A DNA stretch of 64,000 bases from assembly GCF_016125515.1 (NCBI RefSeq), contig NZ_WGLO01000009.1, positions 124,001 to 188,000 of the forward strand. The letters run 5' to 3'. Under the pieces are notes generated by a model, which ran no database searches, was not told where the DNA came from, and was given only the letters and a program-made list of their open reading frames with translations. The translations under genes were made by a program, and so were the position numbers. The stretch comes from Hyphomonas sp. Lineage in GTDB: Bacteria > Pseudomonadota > Alphaproteobacteria > Caulobacterales > Hyphomonadaceae. This document shows, piece after piece, positions 51,663-59,018 of this stretch (position 1 is its first letter; the number at the start of each line of letters is the position of its first letter).

Positions 51663-51739
51663 GCACCCGTAGCTCAGCTGGATAGAGCACCAGACTACGA
51701 ATCTGGGGGTCAGGAGTTCGAATCTCTTCGGGTGCACCA
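51663..51739 (+). tRNA. tRNA-Arg(ACG)
   Basis: A 77-nt cloverleaf with acceptor GCACCCG/CGGGTGC and encoded CCA end. The anticodon stem-loop CCAGACTACGAATCTGG has the loop CTACGAA, giving anticodon ACG (arginine; A34 normally becomes inosine). T-arm GGAGTTCGAATCTC is intact. It marks the left border of a lower-GC accessory region. Confidence 0.97.
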
Positions 51740-51957
51740 TTTTTCTTAGCGATTGCAAGGCGTAGCTGATCGATCGGATCGGTGCTGCGCGGCTCAGGCC
51801 ATCGTCAGGCCATATTTAAGGTCTCGGAATTCAACGCGCTTCAGGGGGACGTCACGTCCGCACCAGAGGCTTAGTGCCACCGAGACATCATCCAAACTTC
51901 ACGGTCCATCAACGGTGTTCAGTCACACCTCCCGATAGAGGGCGGTGAGGTCAGCAG

Positions 51958-52824
51958 TTGAAATTGTTCATAAGCAGATTTTACGGCTTCCGGCCTGAGA
52001 TCGTGCCGGCGATCACTTTTTCGTCGTCAACGCATCGCGACAACCTTCTTACGGATTCTGAGCCGGGTGATCGGATAGTGTTCGTCGCCACCAAGACCAA
52101 GGAAACCAAGGAAGGTGAACGCGGCCGGCTGCTCGGAATGGCTGAAATAGGTCGCCGCGCCGTAGACACACAGTCAATGGTCGTGGTGTGGCCCCTCCCT
52201 CCCGAGATGATGGACGGCGACCGTATCCGATACTCAAGCGCCATTCCGATGACCCGCGCGTGGCGTTTCACCGACACGCCACTGCTGACAGACGTGTTTG
52301 AGCGCCAGCTTCCGAGGTCCGCTACTCAGGGAGCAATCCGGGTGAAGGACGCCGACCAACTTGCGACCTTAGCCCTCTCTACAATCGAAGTTGAGTTGCC
52401 CGACACCCCAGCTCTTGAACGGGAGCGCGAAATACTGGCGAACCAACGTGACCTACTGCCGAGCCGGGGCCCAAAGCCGTCGTCTGGAAAGCGGGAGTTT
52501 GAGGTTGCTCCGCGCAACTTCGGCAACGTTTATGTCCTCAGGTTTGGAAAGCAAGAAGTGTGGAAGGTCGGCAGCTCTCATGATCCGGCGGGCAGGGCGG
52601 CTAGCTTCAATACCAACATTCCCTCCGTGGTCACGGGAGAGTCATGGACGCTGTACATGACGCAGGCAACGGGCTCGCCTGACCAGGCACATGCTCTCGA
52701 GCACAATCTTAAGGGCACACTCACCAAATTTAGCATCGGTGGTGAGATGTTTGCCTGCAGCCTGCGTGATCTACAGCGCGCATGGAACTCAACAGTAGTT
52801 TCGGGGCTGTTTGGCGGCGCGTAG
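51958..52824 (+). CDS. Putative PUA/EVE-like domain plus GIY-YIG-like nuclease
   Basis: 288 residues from TTG 51958 (GAGG upstream). The C-terminal part (190-285) has the GIY-YIG/T5orf172 pattern: NVYVLRF (190-196), KVG (203-205), then catalytic-type Arg213 in DPAGRAASFN and Glu248 in AHALEHNLKG. The N-terminal part (about 30-110) reads TDSEPGDRIVFVATKTKETKE then GRLLGMAEIGRR, which resembles a PUA/EVE-type reader of modified bases; this is a weaker match. Codon use and GC differ from neighbours. It stands upstream of vsr and a C5 methyltransferase, so a DNA cleavage or defence role is likely. Confidence 0.65.
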   Translation: MKLFISRFYGFRPEIVPAITFSSSTHRDNLLTDSEPGDRIVFVATKTKETKEGERGRLLGMAEIGRRAVDTQSMVVVWPLPPEMMDGDRIRYSSAIPMTRAWRFTDTPLLTDVFERQLPRSATQGAIRVKDADQLATLALSTIEVELPDTPALEREREILANQRDLLPSRGPKPSSGKREFEVAPRNFGNVYVLRFGKQEVWKVGSSHDPAGRAASFNTNIPSVVTGESWTLYMTQATGSPDQAHALEHNLKGTLTKFSIGGEMFACSLRDLQRAWNSTVVSGLFGGA

Positions 52825-52923
52825 GCTAGTTCGTCCACAGGTCCACAGGTCTACTGGTGCGCCCATAAAAGCTGGATGCTATTGATGTGTCGAATTTGCG
52901 CAGCGTGAACGGGCCGAAAAGCG

Positions 52924-53331
52924 TTGGCTGACTTTGTCTCCCCTGAAAAGCGCAGCCGCATCATGCGGGGCATCAAACAGAAGAACACTAAGCCTGAGTT
53001 CCACGTCAGAAAGGCGCTGCACCGTGCTGGCTACAGGTTCCGCCTCCACCGCAAGGACCTTCCCGGTCGTCCGGACATCGTCCTGCCTAAGTACGGGATC
53101 GTCATAATGGTGAACGGCTGCTTCTGGCACCAACACGCAGAATGCAAGGAAGGTCGGCTGCCCACGAGCAATCAAGAGTATTGGGTGCCGAAACTGGCGC
53201 GGAATGTCGAGCGCGACCGCGAGAAGTCCGAAGCTTTGGCCGCCTTGGGTTGGAACGTGCTGACAGTCTGGGCCTGCACCGCAAACAATCCCGAAGCGCT
53301 GGAGAGATGGCTTTCAGACCACCTTCCCTGA
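52924..53331 (+). CDS. vsr: Very short patch repair endonuclease
   Basis: 135 residues. Vsr nicks at T:G mismatches that arise by deamination of 5-methylcytosine. The family pattern RSRIMRGIKQKNTKPE (Glu25), PGRPDIVLP (Asp51), NGCFWHQHAEC (Cys66, His69, His71, Cys74), NVERDREKSEALAALGW and TVWACT is present, and the residue numbers fit E. coli Vsr. At position 64, where E. coli has His, this protein has Asn. The start is TTG 52924, supported by the correct spacing of these residues. It precedes the methyltransferase in the usual pairing. Confidence 0.92.
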   Translation: MADFVSPEKRSRIMRGIKQKNTKPEFHVRKALHRAGYRFRLHRKDLPGRPDIVLPKYGIVIMVNGCFWHQHAECKEGRLPTSNQEYWVPKLARNVERDREKSEALAALGWNVLTVWACTANNPEALERWLSDHLP

Positions 53332-53425
53332 ACAAAACGAATCCATCCACAAAATCCTGGGAAAAACGCCTGGTCGAACTCGAAAATCACGTTATGTTCC
53401 GACCAATCGATTCGGAGATGCGAGC

Positions 53426-54886
53426 ATGTCGAGCAAGTTCAAATACGTAGATTTGTTTGCCGGATGCGGAGGTCTGTCGTTGGGGCTAGAGCAGGCCGGT
53501 TTCGAGCTAGCCCTGGCCGTCGAAAAGTCTGACATGGCGGCGGAGACATTCTTCCACAATTTCGTTGAGCGTATCGTTGAGCAAGAGGATTGGGAGAAAT
53601 TTTCATCGCCCGACACGTCCGTCTTGCAGCAAGCGAAAAAGAAGCTCGTCGTCAAAGAGCTTGCGGCCGTTCTGCAGTGCAAAGAACTGCTGTCTCAGCT
53701 AAAGGCTCAAGACATTGATCTCGTTGCTGGCGGCCCGCCATGTCAGGGTTTTTCACTAGCCGGTCGCAGGAATCCCGCCGACGTGCGGAACAAGTTACCT
53801 TGGCAGTTTTTAGAGTTTGTCGAGGCTGTTCACCCAAAGGCAGTTGTCATCGAGAACGTGTCGGGGATGAAGCAAGACTTCCTGAAGCATGGGCAGTCCT
53901 CGCCTTTCGACCAGCTACGGATAGCGCTCTCTGAAACCGGGCCGGGATACAAAGTTCAGCCCGTACTGCTAAACGCCATGCACTTCGGCACCCCGCAGCA
54001 CCGTCCGAGAGTGATGCTGATTGGGCTTAGGGCTGATGTAGCAGAGATTCTCGGCTTTGAAGGTTCAAGCCAGACTTGGAAATCCGAATTCGATCACATC
54101 CAAACTACGCTCTTCAATCGTCGTCCCGTGGTTGCGCCGAAGGCTACGCACTTCGGCGAGGACATCTTGACTGTTGCGGACGCGATCGGTGACCTTTCCG
54201 ACGACGGGTATATCGAGAACATAAACATCTCTGAGTTTGCAAATGAGATGCGCGAGAGCACCGAGTGGATGCCAAAGCGAGTTAGAGCTTCATACAGCAA
54301 GGGCGCATTGCCGAACCACGCTCGTCGTCGTCACGCTCCACACATTGAGACCCGCTTTCGTCTGTACCAGTACATCCGAGATCAAGGCCTAAATGCCAAG
54401 ATATTGAATATTCCAAAAGTCGAGGGAGTGTCCAAGAACGGATTGAGGGTGATGGTCGCAGAAGCGCTGGGAAACACCTCGCTGCCCGCTAAAGCGCCCG
54501 ATGGAGTTACTCTCGCCGAAGACAAGATTGATCTGGTCACGGCGATAATGGAACTTGGCACCAAGAAGCACAGCCAGCGACCTTTGAAATGGAGCGCGCC
54601 CAGCCCCACGGTCGTGAGCTTGCCAGATGACTACGTCCACCCCAGCCTGCCTCGAACACTTACAGTGCGCGAACTTGCTCGGTTCCAATCGTTCCCAGAT
54701 GCATTCGAATTCAGAGCCAAAGAGACCACTGGAAGCCTGAGGCGGCGCTTCGAGGTTCCTCAGTATACGCAAGTCGGAAACGCGGTGCCGCCCAAGATGG
54801 CGAAAGCAGTTGGTCTGTCGGTCAAGAAGGCACTTCGTGAGGCATTGTCAAAAGCCAAAGAATTGCCCGCAAGGAAAATCGCTTAA
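53426..54886 (+). CDS. DNA (cytosine-5-)-methyltransferase
   Basis: 486 residues. Motif I is VDLFAGCGGLSLG (8-20), the catalytic Pro-Cys loop GGPPCQGFS (Cys106), motif VI ENV (143-145), motif VIII QHRPR (191-195) and motif X GNAVPP (451-456). A long variable region (200-400) forms the target-recognition domain. It methylates cytosine at C5. Vsr directly upstream fits protection against deamination hot spots. Its 3-prime end overlaps a minus-strand remnant by 4 nt (TTAA). The target site cannot be read from sequence. Confidence 0.94.
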   Translation: MSSKFKYVDLFAGCGGLSLGLEQAGFELALAVEKSDMAAETFFHNFVERIVEQEDWEKFSSPDTSVLQQAKKKLVVKELAAVLQCKELLSQLKAQDIDLVAGGPPCQGFSLAGRRNPADVRNKLPWQFLEFVEAVHPKAVVIENVSGMKQDFLKHGQSSPFDQLRIALSETGPGYKVQPVLLNAMHFGTPQHRPRVMLIGLRADVAEILGFEGSSQTWKSEFDHIQTTLFNRRPVVAPKATHFGEDILTVADAIGDLSDDGYIENINISEFANEMRESTEWMPKRVRASYSKGALPNHARRRHAPHIETRFRLYQYIRDQGLNAKILNIPKVEGVSKNGLRVMVAEALGNTSLPAKAPDGVTLAEDKIDLVTAIMELGTKKHSQRPLKWSAPSPTVVSLPDDYVHPSLPRTLTVRELARFQSFPDAFEFRAKETTGSLRRRFEVPQYTQVGNAVPPKMAKAVGLSVKKALREALSKAKELPARKIA

Positions 54887-55021
54887 ATCCCTAGTCTCTC
54901 CTTTAGGAGATCGTCACTGTACCAACCTTGTTTATTCGCGACCGCAGACGCGAGGTGGGAGTCTACAGTGCCGGGGAATAGGTCGCTCAAGTTGCGTTTG
55001 AAAAACTCATCCAAGCCGAAG
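54883..55021 (-). pseudogene. C-terminal remnant of a gene truncated by the IS
   Basis: On the minus strand a frame ending in TAA (54883-54885) encodes FGLDEFFKRNLSDLF, then PGTVDSHLASAVANKQGWYS and DDLLKERLGI, about 45 residues, before it meets the IS end at 55022. The sequence beyond the IS on the right (56346 onward) does not continue it. Its convergent 4-nt overlap with the methyltransferase matches intact pairs in this genome, so it was probably a real partner gene, possibly a nuclease. The identity cannot be told. Confidence 0.5.
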
Positions 55022-55047
55022 TGAACCGCGCCGGGTTTGCCGGAGGC
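55022..55047 (+). repeat. IS left terminal inverted repeat
   Basis: TGAACCGCGCCGG then six unlike bases then CGGAGGC; pairs with the right end at 56320-56345. Confidence 0.9.
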
Positions 55048-55071
55048 CATTTTCTTTGAGAGAGTGGACCT

Positions 55072-55404
55072 ATGACAGACAAGAAGCAGAGACCTCCTTA
55101 CTCGCCAGAGGTGCGTGAGCGAGCCGTTCGGATGGTGATTGAACACGGCGGCGAGTACCCGTCGCAATGGGCGGCGATCGTCTCGATTGCCGGCAAGATC
55201 GGGTGCGTGCCGCAGACACTGCATGGCTGGGTCGCGCAGGCCGAGCGGGACGCCGGCAAGCGGTCCGGGCCCAGCACTGAAGAGCGCGAACGGATCAAGG
55301 CGCTTGAGCGCGAGAACCGGGAGCTCCGCCAGGCGAACGAGATCCTCCGGAAGGCGTCCGCATATTTTGCCCAGGCGGAGCTCGACCGCCGACCGAAGAC
55401 ATGA
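55072..55404 (+). CDS. IS3 family transposase OrfA
   Basis: 110 residues. An N-terminal helix-turn-helix ([20 protein letters not shown], then [15 protein letters not shown]) and a C-terminal coiled coil ([20 protein letters not shown]) are typical. It contributes DNA binding and oligomerisation in transposition. Stop overlaps the OrfB ATG. Confidence 0.94.
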
Positions 55405-56306
55405 TCGCGTTCATTGACGATCATCGCGATGTTTATGGGGTCGAGCCGATCTGCAGGGTATTGCCGATCGCCCCATCAACCTATCATGAGGCGGATGCGC
55501 GGCGGCGTCGCCCCGAGCTCAAGCCGCCGCGCGTCCGCCGGGATGAGGCGCTGAAGCCGGAGATCCTTCGGGTCTTCAATGAGAACTTCAGCGTCTATGG
55601 CGCCAACAAGGTCTGGCACCAGATGAAGCGGGAAGGCTTTGACGTGGCCCGCTGCACCGTCAGGCGCCTGATGAAAGCCATGGGATTGCAGGGCATAATC
55701 CGCGGTAAGCCGCACCGCACGACCTACAGCGACAAGGCGGCGCCTTGCCCGCTCGACCATGTGAACCGCAACTTCAAGGCCCCGGCACCGAACAGGCTCT
55801 GGGTCAGCGATTTCACCTACGTCTCGACCTGGGCCGGGTTCGTTTACGTCGCCTTCGTGATCGATGTGTTCGCCCGCCGCATTGTCGGCTGGCGTGTCAG
55901 CCGGACGGCGCATGCGAGCTTTGTGCTCGATGCTCTTGAGCAGGCCTTGCACGACCGAAGGCCCGGCATCGGAAGTGGTCTTGTTCATCACTCTGACCGC
56001 GGCAGCCAGTATGTCAGCATACGGTATACGGAGCGTCTGGCAGAGGCAGGCCTTGAGCCATCCGTCGGCAGCGTCGGTGACAGCTATGACAATGCCCTCG
56101 CCGAGACGATCAATGGACTCTACAAAGCCGAAGTCATCTGGCGGAAAGGCCCCTGGAAATCCATGGACGCCGTCGAGTACGCCACCCTCGAATGGGTCGA
56201 CTGGTTTAATCACCGCCGCCTGCTCGAGCCGATCGGAAACATCCCTCCGGCAGAAGCCGAGGCCAACTACTTTGCAGCGCTGAAGGAAAACGCTATCGCT
56301 GCATGA
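55401..56306 (+). CDS. IS3 family transposase OrfB (DDE integrase)
   Basis: 301 residues. The HTH_21-like segment [16 protein letters not shown] is followed by the rve integrase core: Asp in [20 protein letters not shown], Asp in [11 protein letters not shown] and Glu in [13 protein letters not shown]. The DDE triad is complete, so the element may still be active. Start ATG 55401 overlaps the orfA TGA. I see no classical A6G slippery site, so reinitiation at ATGA may replace a programmed frameshift. Confidence 0.94.
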
Positions 56307-56319
56307 CTCTAACCAAACA

Positions 56320-56345
56320 GCCTCCGGGGTTACCGGCGCGGTTCA
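56320..56345 (-). repeat. IS right terminal inverted repeat
   Basis: GCCTCCGG then five unlike bases then CCGGCGCGGTTCA; the reverse complement of the left end except for the central bases. Confidence 0.9.
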
Positions 56346-56760
56346 GTTGTTTCCCGAGACTTGTCATTGGCTGGTCCGTACGAAAAAGTGTGCTTGAGGC
56401 GACGGGTTAAGTAACCAAAGCCAAGCGCGAACCGGACGGATACAACCATCCTGATTCACCACCTACAGCTTTGATCCCGGGTTCAGCGGTATTTTACGCC
56501 CCTTCGGTCGTGGTCCCCCGAATCGTGGCAGCCCGTTGCAGGCGCCAACGGGCGCCATCCAGAAGGCCTAGGTAGTTCGATCGAAGCGCGGATAAAACAT
56601 CCGGTCGTCCGCCTCTCCGTCAATGACTCGATCGAGTTTGCGAAGCGGGCGGGGGGTGGTCTGCCGACGGAAGCACAATAGGCGTATGCAGCTCGACGCG
56701 GGCTGTCCGGAGCGCTTTACGAATAGACCGGTAAACCTACTGAAGACAACGAGCAGCAGG
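56346..56760. other. Non-coding or decayed DNA right of the IS
   Basis: No open frame with recognisable content. Both strands carry frequent stops. A possible 98-residue minus-strand frame (56568-56864) has no family features and overlaps the FGE-like fragment. Confidence 0.5.
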
Positions 56761-57107: not shown

Positions 57108-58259
57108 CTAGTCGTTGAGAGATTGCGAGATGCGGATCAACTCGTCGAATGCAAGCACGATATGATACGCTGTGCTAGCAGGTATGCTGCAGCCATTGAT
57201 GCAACCATCCATGGTTCGGCAGTCTAGCCATCCCCCATCGGGCGCACCGTCGAAATGATCCAGGCGAATCCGGCCTAAATTTTCGATGGCTCTAGTCAGT
57301 GCCTCCCTGTCGCCGCCGTGTGCCACAATCAGGTTCGCCTTTAAGGCTTCTGTCAGGGACCAGAGCCTCCGGTCAGAGCGCAGGGGGACTTCGTCGAGGG
57401 TGTGTTCCAGAATAATGCATCCGTCAGGTTCGGTGAGCCGGAGCGCGCTGGCAAACAGTTCACCCGCGTGGCGACACACTGCGGTACCCGACAGCTCCGC
57501 ATGTTTCTGCAGTAACCACGTCCACTCATAATGGTGGCCAGCCTCTACGCGGTTCACTGAACTTTCGTCCCCTAAGGGGAAACAAAACTCCCGCAAGGTC
57601 GATGATCCGTTATCGAAAAATACACGCAGGACGAAATCGCGGATCTTGGTACAACGCTCCAGATAATCGATCCTGTCGAACGCGGCAGCTGCCGCGAGAT
57701 AGGCCTCGAATAGGTGCATGTGCGGGTTTTGTGACCGCTGGGGGCTCGCAGGCAGGGTTTCAAAGTATCCGTTTCCATCCGGCTGCCGCTTGCCAGTTGA
57801 TTCAAGCGCGAGGGTCAACCGTTCTGCGGGCAGTACCACTAGTTCCTTCAAACCGGCCGCGGCGACGGCCGAAAATGCAAGCAGGACAAACGCCGAATCG
57901 TATAGGCTCGCGCGATCGTGTGTCAGTCCTTTGCCGAGCTCGATCTCGAAGCCATACAACCCGTCATGACGTTGGCATTGCTCGACCAGAGTAGCGACGC
58001 CCAAGCGCATCATCTGTTCGCTGATCTGGCATTGCCATCCCATCTGATATGCTTTCGCGAACACGTATGTCTGGCGGGCCTGGACGCGCACACGTGTTTT
58101 TGGGTTTGTGATCGGCTGACCAGACCCGTCGAGTTCTTCCCAGAAGCCCAACGAGGGGCACACTCCGGCTGACGACCACAGCGGAAAGGCCTTCTCAAAC
58201 AGCCACGACCGTGCCCAGTCAGCGTTCCCCCGAAGGTGTTGAACGACCTCGGTATGCAT
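57108..58259 (-). CDS. AGE-family sugar epimerase/isomerase
   Basis: 383 residues, normal for N-acylglucosamine 2-epimerase/mannose-6-phosphate-isomerase-like proteins. The (alpha/alpha)6-barrel motifs are present: RVRVQARQTYVFAKAYQMGW, GFEIELGK, DSAFVLLAFSA, NPHMHLFEAYLAAAAAF and AGHHYEWTWLLQKHAEL (catalytic His region). It would interconvert or isomerise sugars in the cytoplasm. ATG 58259 is used, but the ribosome-binding site is poor; a GTG or TTG farther upstream is possible. Base composition is lower than core genes. Confidence 0.82.
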   Translation of the reverse strand: MHTEVVQHLRGNADWARSWLFEKAFPLWSSAGVCPSLGFWEELDGSGQPITNPKTRVRVQARQTYVFAKAYQMGWQCQISEQMMRLGVATLVEQCQRHDGLYGFEIELGKGLTHDRASLYDSAFVLLAFSAVAAAGLKELVVLPAERLTLALESTGKRQPDGNGYFETLPASPQRSQNPHMHLFEAYLAAAAAFDRIDYLERCTKIRDFVLRVFFDNGSSTLREFCFPLGDESSVNRVEAGHHYEWTWLLQKHAELSGTAVCRHAGELFASALRLTEPDGCIILEHTLDEVPLRSDRRLWSLTEALKANLIVAHGGDREALTRAIENLGRIRLDHFDGAPDGGWLDCRTMDGCINGCSIPASTAYHIVLAFDELIRISQSLND

Positions 58260-59018
58260 TGCAATTGTCACAAACACCCCTCGGACATTCAATGTCGTAA
58301 CGTTACGAATACCCTACCGATTGCCGGGCCGCTGTTCAAGTTCTGTTGACGATTTGGTTTGCCTACGATGAAGCGAATGTAGTCTTAGCTAGAGCGCCGC
58401 TGTGCGCAATGTCGGAGACCTGCTTCACGAACGCGGGTTCGCATTTGTCTAACAGCACCTGTCCAGGTATCAGTCATTGCAGCTAACCAGTTTCGGCGGG
58501 ATCATCCTGTTTAAGAGCGGACACCTATTGCGCTGCTCCGGTGCTGAGCGTCTTGGCGACGTTGTCTGGCGCGAGGATGATCGATTGGAAAGCCGGTTGA
58601 AAAATTTCAGGAGACCGCGATTGGGTCGATGCTTCGAAACTTCATTCACGATAATAAAAAAAGAGGAGAAGATCATCCCACAAAATTCCCTACAAATATT
58701 CCTACAAATCAAAAATTTTTTGCGTTTAACGTCCTGTTATAAATAGGTTTTTTATATTCTCCGGAGCGCTTCGCCCGCTCCAGAAGGAAAAACATTCCGG
58801 TTACCGAAAAGTCGTTGCGCTGACCGTGGCCGGGGGCGCGCCCCAGCGCTGGGTTCTTGCGTGTCTGGCCACTCCTCAAACTGTCCACAAAAGGCTCCAC
58901 AAGTCGGGGGTCCCTGGACTGTTTTCGCCTTGGGCGCTTGTTCTCCTTGACCAAATGCCACCGGTGTCATTTAATCGTCGGGAAGGGCTGACACAGATCG
59001 CTCTCCGGGAGGACTGAC
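58260..59018. other. Intergenic region with AT-rich segment
   Basis: About 760 bp with no convincing gene. The middle (about 58640-58760) is markedly AT-rich and includes two copies of CCTACAAAT and several A or T runs, which may hold promoters for either flanking gene. Near 58885 the spacing CTGTCCACAA then CTCCACAAG resembles DnaA-box halves but not convincingly. No structural RNA is recognised. Confidence 0.5.

Follow-up and report, generated by a model that had tools for sequence, protein, structure and literature searches.

A predicted EVE-like–GIY-YIG nuclease next to a probably decayed type II restriction-modification module at a tRNA-Arg gene of Hyphomonas sp.

In the 64,000-nucleotide stretch of Hyphomonas sp. 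analysed here (contig NZ_WGLO01000009.1, positions 124,001 to 188,000), which is called the window and supplies the coordinates below, a tRNA-Arg gene is followed by three genes encoding a fusion of an EVE-like with a GIY-YIG domain, a Vsr endonuclease and a C5-cytosine methyltransferase. A truncated open reading frame (ORF) and an insertion sequence (IS) adjoin them. Protein lengths are given in amino acids (aa). The features are as follows:

51663-51739, + strand: intact tRNA-Arg (ACG), left edge of the island (ARAGORN)
51740-51813, no strand: short segment that genome G020 has about 5 kb past the same tRNA, together with the tRNA 3' half, an attachment-site-like duplication there
51958-52824, + strand: 288-aa protein with a TTG start, EVE-like plus GIY-YIG (T5orf172-type), predicted to be a modification-dependent endonuclease
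52924-53331, + strand: Vsr, a mismatch endonuclease of 135 aa with a TTG start (TIGR00632, 1cw0)
53426-54886, + strand: C5-cytosine methyltransferase, 486 aa (PF00145; 66% identical relative in genome G551)
54883-55021, - strand: what is left of a truncated convergent gene, about 45 codons from its 3' end; possibly a former restriction gene (position as in G551)
about 55022-56344, + strand: IS3-family element whose two transposase ORFs, 55072-55404 and 55401-56306, overlap (inverted repeats, NF033516)

The ORFs of the fusion protein, the Vsr and the methyltransferase are all intact and lie on the + strand downstream of the tRNA-Arg, separated by gaps of 99 bp (fusion to Vsr) and 94 bp (Vsr to methyltransferase). 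Their GC contents are 0.578, 0.586 and 0.541 respectively, against 0.637 for the whole window. An earlier reading, made from the letters and their ORFs alone (the sequence-only reading), had described a tRNA-Arg and then three same-strand genes of lower GC, with which ARAGORN, the ORFs and the GC values agree. It had placed them "directly after" the tRNA; the order is right, while the actual distance from the tRNA end to the start of the fusion gene is 218 bp. Promoter and terminator predictions at the locus were near the shuffle expectation.

The C-terminal domain of the fusion protein is a predicted GIY-YIG nuclease of the T5orf172 type, as judged from its residues and its modelled fold. In Pfam, residues 190-275 score 15.6 bits for T5orf172 (threshold 20) and 14 bits for GIY-YIG (threshold 22.6), both sub-threshold, and scans of the protein against NCBIfam and PADLOC gave no match. 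A homologue at locus L033, which is 43% identical to the window protein, reaches 23.4 bits for T5orf172, above the threshold of 20. All 18 aligned sequences share Y192, K203, G205, R213, E248, G261 and E263, and position 218 is N in 15 of them and Q in 3. By position, Y192, K203/G205, R213 and E248 (plus E263) are the putative catalytic residues. A single-sequence fold was discarded for its low predicted local distance difference test score (pLDDT 32.7), and an AlphaFold model from 8 sequences (pLDDT 82.2) has two domains and a disordered linker at 165-184. Foldseek comparison of this model with the PDB gave 1 match at E 0.001 or better and 219 up to E 10, of which the best 50 were used; among these, the nuclease half matched Slx1 (7cq2; E 0.029, prob 1.00, rank 47), which has the GIY-YIG fold. 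Against the viral models of BFVD there were 122 matches at E 0.001 or better, and the best 50 of the 122 include many T5orf172/BRO proteins, matched by the nuclease half.

The N-terminal domain is predicted to be EVE-like (PUA superfamily), for which the evidence from profiles and from the model is remote but consistent. The profile of the N-domain family was compared with one for standalone EVE proteins from the same order, and it turned out that residues 26-71 scored 27.8 (E 0.00076), while the maximum over 100 column shuffles was 18.2. PDB profile searches with two alignments matched 1wmm (UPF0310), which we take to be an EVE protein, at E 0.061 and 0.5. The best 50 Foldseek matches in the PDB are mostly PUA-superfamily domains, some of them presumably from EVE proteins: YTH, ASCH, 2gbs, 2g2x, 1zce, 2eve, 2ar1, THYN1 with 5-methylcytosine (5mC) DNA, the McrB N-domain and the restriction endonuclease VcaM4I (6yex, E 0.026). 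Aromatic residues stand at positions 9 and 21 in 18 of 18 sequences and W102 is present in 17 of 18; these may form a base-binding cage.

The Vsr matches TIGR00632 with 156.5 bits (cut-off 97.85) and the solved Vsr structure 1cw0, presumably that of E. coli, with E 7.1e-27. The methyltransferase matches PF00145 (E 5.4e-57) and contains patterns that we assign to the C5 motifs I, IV, VI, VIII, IX and X; it is the sole PF00145 match in its own genome. Close relatives of the methyltransferase were found in none of 384 other genomes of the class (E 1e-60) and in 1 of 298 other genomes of the order (1e-40). The nearest relative found is in genome G551 (locus L098), which is 66% identical and preceded by a 69% identical Vsr. 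After this methyltransferase come a convergent intact MvaI/BcnI restriction gene (PF15515, 2.5e-57), a tyrosine integrase and a tRNA-Lys, and a profile search of the G551 ORFs found no fusion gene. DNA homology between the window and G551 extends from the start of vsr to near the end of the methyltransferase gene. Since G551 pairs both genes with an MvaI/BcnI gene and lacks the fusion gene, the Vsr and the methyltransferase are, by sequence kinship, core genes of a standard type II system. The more distant methyltransferase relatives (31-36% identity) make up 10 distinct records. Among them, an MvaI/BcnI gene is annotated beside L049 and L051, Acinetobacter plasmids whose methyltransferases are 34-36% identical to that of the window; a similar-looking C-terminus was seen by eye upstream in L043-L048, and no MvaI/BcnI-like gene was seen in L041 and L050. 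In L098 the restriction gene lies downstream and is convergent; the two Acinetobacter plasmids have it upstream, in divergent orientation. The window shares with these systems the Vsr–methyltransferase order, as in L098, and the site of its methyltransferase is perhaps CCNGG-like by analogy with the MvaI/BcnI kin.

Unlike those systems, the window has no recognisable MvaI/BcnI gene and no intact cognate restriction gene at the locus. At the position of the restriction gene in G551 there is only the IS-truncated tail of the convergent ORF, which ends at 54883 and overlaps the methyltransferase end by 4 nt. The listed ORF (54883-55224) runs into the IS, and only 54883-55021 (about 45-46 codons) lies outside it. 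The element matches NF033516 (309 bits). IS3-type inverted repeats are located at 55019-55060 and 56307-56348, and a second, partial copy in the genome has the same right edge, which together place the IS at the coordinates given above; no target-site duplication was seen in the sequence. The tail had no match in Pfam, PADLOC, NCBIfam or the 298 order and 384 class genomes, and in plasmids only two chance-level matches (E 4). As a C-terminus of MvaI/BcnI it was rejected by sequence, as its score of 23 against the G551 enzyme was equalled by 403 of 500 shuffles. On gene content the sequence-only reading has held up: the two domains of the 288-aa protein (AlphaFold and Foldseek, profile comparisons, homologue L033), the Vsr and C5-methyltransferase behind it, and the convergent ORF with its overlap and its interruption by an IS (ORF coordinates, IS3-type repeats) were all described there.

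To figure out the usual neighbours of the fusion gene, members of its family were collected elsewhere. Near-full members came from five plasmid records (L008-L012), eight genome-scan loci (L033-L040), two Rhodobacterales plasmid loci (L053, L054), two viral contigs (L052, L094) and eight genomes of the order; 13 of 299 order genomes matched, including the window's own, and 4 of the other 12 had the nuclease domain only. These four genomes, G004 (also one-domain matches) and a partial Thioclava match (H12) were left out of the counts. Of the 25 loci, L094 was judged from its ORF list alone and the other 24 were compared by sequence; upstream flanks are short (0.4 to 2.3 kb) at L034, L035, L039 and L040. 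A phage search found no family members; in viral contigs, profiles A1 and A7 matched none, and A3/A5 and A4/A8 one contig each. Near-duplicate loci were collapsed by eye into 20 groups, and restriction or abortive-infection genes adjoin the fusion gene in 10 of the 20, some of these ten being close kin and not independent. A type IIG MmeI-like gene overlaps the fusion gene by 4 nt in L071 (genome G599), and a type III system lies next to it in L072. HsdR (L074) and HsdS (L053 and L094) are type I neighbours, Mrr_cat is the neighbour in L037 and, by eye and annotation, the same kind of gene in L008/L010; AbiE stands beside the fusion gene in L009/L012 and AbiEi in L036, and the neighbour in L038 has a weak PDC-M34B/HEPN match. 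In the eight order genomes (25.8 Mb) N6-methyltransferase genes occur at 13 loci. Within 10 kb of the fusion gene there are two, where 0.08 would be expected (Poisson P 0.003); at 15 kb the count is three (P 0.0003), both distances having been picked after viewing the data.

Several of these loci have further peculiarities. L071:7125-8327 encodes a second, unrelated-looking T5orf172/MUG113 protein, with a SIR2 defence gene, downstream in the type IIG operon, so that two GIY-YIG proteins occur at one locus. The fusion protein of L010:6001-6858 (Sinorhizobium meliloti M162) differs from that of L008 in mid-stretch, as if the frame had shifted and then been restored. L011, L039 and L040 are copies without the N-terminal part, merged with a reading frame that resembles a permease, in a region of copper genes. 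In the viral contig L094, an extra GIY-YIG-looking ORF (2197-2757) was seen by eye between HsdS and the fusion gene.

Taken together, the cassette probably consists of two defence modules that adjoin each other in an island linked to the tRNA-Arg, namely a decayed type II system and a single-protein, type IV-like enzyme. The comparison of loci shows that the two modules differ in ancestry. The type II remnant would comprise 52924-54886 and a lost or truncated convergent gene. Its methyltransferase would make 5mC at a fixed site, and Vsr would repair T:G mismatches there after deamination; such mismatches, which arise from the deamination of 5mC, are the substrate of Vsr repair. As the restriction gene is missing or truncated, the methyltransferase is now probably an orphan. 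The fusion enzyme would work independently of the neighbouring methyltransferase: the EVE-like domain would dock on a modified base of incoming DNA, and the GIY-YIG domain would cut the DNA so recognised, acting against phages. Because the methyltransferase looks intact, the sensor should ignore the mark of its neighbour if the two are to be compatible in one host; plausible targets are 5-hydroxymethylcytosine (5hmC)-type or bulkier phage modifications, as for CMoRE. It is conceivable, though we hold it only tentatively, that the fusion gene serves as a portable type IV module and joins the ends of many kinds of classical defence loci (type I, II, IIG, III, Mrr-like and AbiE).

Several results weigh against this picture. 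For the EVE-like domain, hhalign gave the EVE profile comparison a probability of only 25%, over 39 columns; a glycosyltransferase (E 0.0082) outranks 1wmm in the first PDB profile search, via the C-domain; PF01878 was not matched by the window protein in the Pfam scan; and Foldseek gave low TM-scores (TMt no higher than about 0.5 among the matches listed), because only one domain aligns. For the type II remnant, a Vsr is nearby in only 1 of the 10 distant methyltransferase records (L051, also seen as L042), and the tail, whose sequence resembles no restriction enzyme, may not be an old restriction gene. A restriction gene may also lie elsewhere in the genome: the PF15515 search of the window's own genome (G000) was empty, but it shows little, as the same search matched no control genome. 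For defence in general, the other 10 of the 20 groups have no recognised defence gene beside the fusion gene (for example L033, after gatB, L068, L069 and L073), among neighbours that were scanned in part.

The last result is shared by the best surviving alternative, which we consider unlikely: the nuclease could be a homing-type or mobile-element endonuclease, or an antitoxin- or toxin-like regulator, and not a defence enzyme. T5orf172 GIY-YIG domains are found in many viral proteins, the fusion gene stands beside an integrase in L070 and also occurs on plasmids, and about half of the loci have no defence neighbour. The EVE-like domain, the restriction and abortive-infection neighbours in half of the non-redundant loci and, in 2 of 8 genomes, an N6-methyltransferase gene within 10 kb argue against it.

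The sequence-only reading had proposed that the fusion protein is the restriction partner of this methyltransferase and Vsr in a new type II system, which is now very improbable. The genes are indeed adjacent, closely spaced and on one strand, and the locus has no intact standard restriction gene. In G551 the related module comes with a standard restriction gene and lacks the fusion gene, and a search for homologues with the same neighbours, set beforehand as a test, found no relative of the window Vsr or methyltransferase near the fusion gene in any of 24 other loci (ORF comparison, E 0.001). Among the 8 order genomes with a near-full member, 7 have PF00145 genes, in none of the 8 near the fusion gene: the distance is 857 kb in G043 and about 1 Mb in G665, and elsewhere the genes are on different contigs. 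On these grounds the fusion protein was rejected as the restriction subunit; the new restriction system does not stand, and both modules belong to known kinds. The same reading had also suggested a modification-dependent nuclease tuned to the methylated site; modification dependence is the likeliest predicted function, while there is very little chance of tuning to the neighbour's mark, despite an N-domain fold like THYN1 with 5mC DNA and like VcaM4I, since such an enzyme would attack its own host, whose only PF00145 match looks intact, and its family also stands beside adenine-type and other systems. VcaM4I restricts 5hmC and 5mC according to a review (PMC12707154).

The preferred reading of two adjacent modules has precedents for its type IV half. 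In Bell et al. 2020 (PMC7641849), EVE–GIY-YIG fusions are numerous and predicted, or listed as putative, type IV enzymes, so that the statement of the sequence-only reading that this is not a named system was too strong. EVE proteins are described there beside type I systems, in loci that, according to the authors, could restrict both unmodified and modified DNA. The window family has the same two domain superfamilies as those fusions, and neighbours of the kind described there for EVE proteins; it differs in an N-domain too divergent for Pfam and in having a type II remnant as its neighbour. Among the literature titles listed, none reports an EVE–GIY-YIG protein beside type II, IIG or III systems, which is weak evidence of absence. 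CMoRE (PD-T4-3), shown to cut DNA with 5hmC and glucosylated 5hmC, is similar in joining a GIY-YIG nuclease and a modified-base sensor in a single protein, the sensing by the window protein being predicted (PMC12923530). CMoRE has an N-terminal GIY-YIG domain and a C-terminal sensor, the reverse of the domain order in our model; its sensor, which is not EVE and lacks known homologues, differs from the EVE-like domain here, and the third tyrosine of CMoRE (GIYxY) is absent from the window protein, in which residue 194 is leucine (Y192-V-L194). VcaM4I likewise carries an EVE sensor and a nuclease on one chain, the nuclease being HNH instead of GIY-YIG.

As for the tRNA-Arg site, six members of the genus share the same tRNA-Arg and its upstream gene. 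Window positions 51693-51813, which are the tRNA 3' half and the next 74 bp, match L026:6406-6526 of genome G020 at 82.8%. In G020 the same tRNA-Arg is followed by a 5-kb insert (L026:1446-6526) that contains genes for LysR and Fic and is closed by the repeat of the tRNA 3' half, probably marking an integration hot spot. In G010 (L030) a type I restriction system (HsdR, HsdS and HsdM by Pfam) adjoins the same tRNA-Arg. Both observations support the view that the site is a hot spot for inserts carrying defence genes. No second tRNA-derived attachment repeat was found in the window, and no integrase was seen beside the cassette. The same low-GC stretch, reaching about 58.9 kb, also includes an N-acylglucosamine 2-epimerase-like gene at 57108-58292 (PF07221, 1.3e-43).

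In conclusion, the two-module reading, if true, would add to the EVE–GIY-YIG proteins a divergent family overlooked by annotation pipelines (sub-threshold in Pfam, no PADLOC or NCBIfam match), and would place this family next to several types of restriction system. It would also provide a test case for a modification-dependent nuclease that coexists with the DNA methylation of its own host, and a candidate enzyme to detect modified bases. If the fusion gene is indeed a portable module, one island would reject both unmodified DNA and phage DNA modified against restriction, with the type II half decayed and the type IV half intact in the window.

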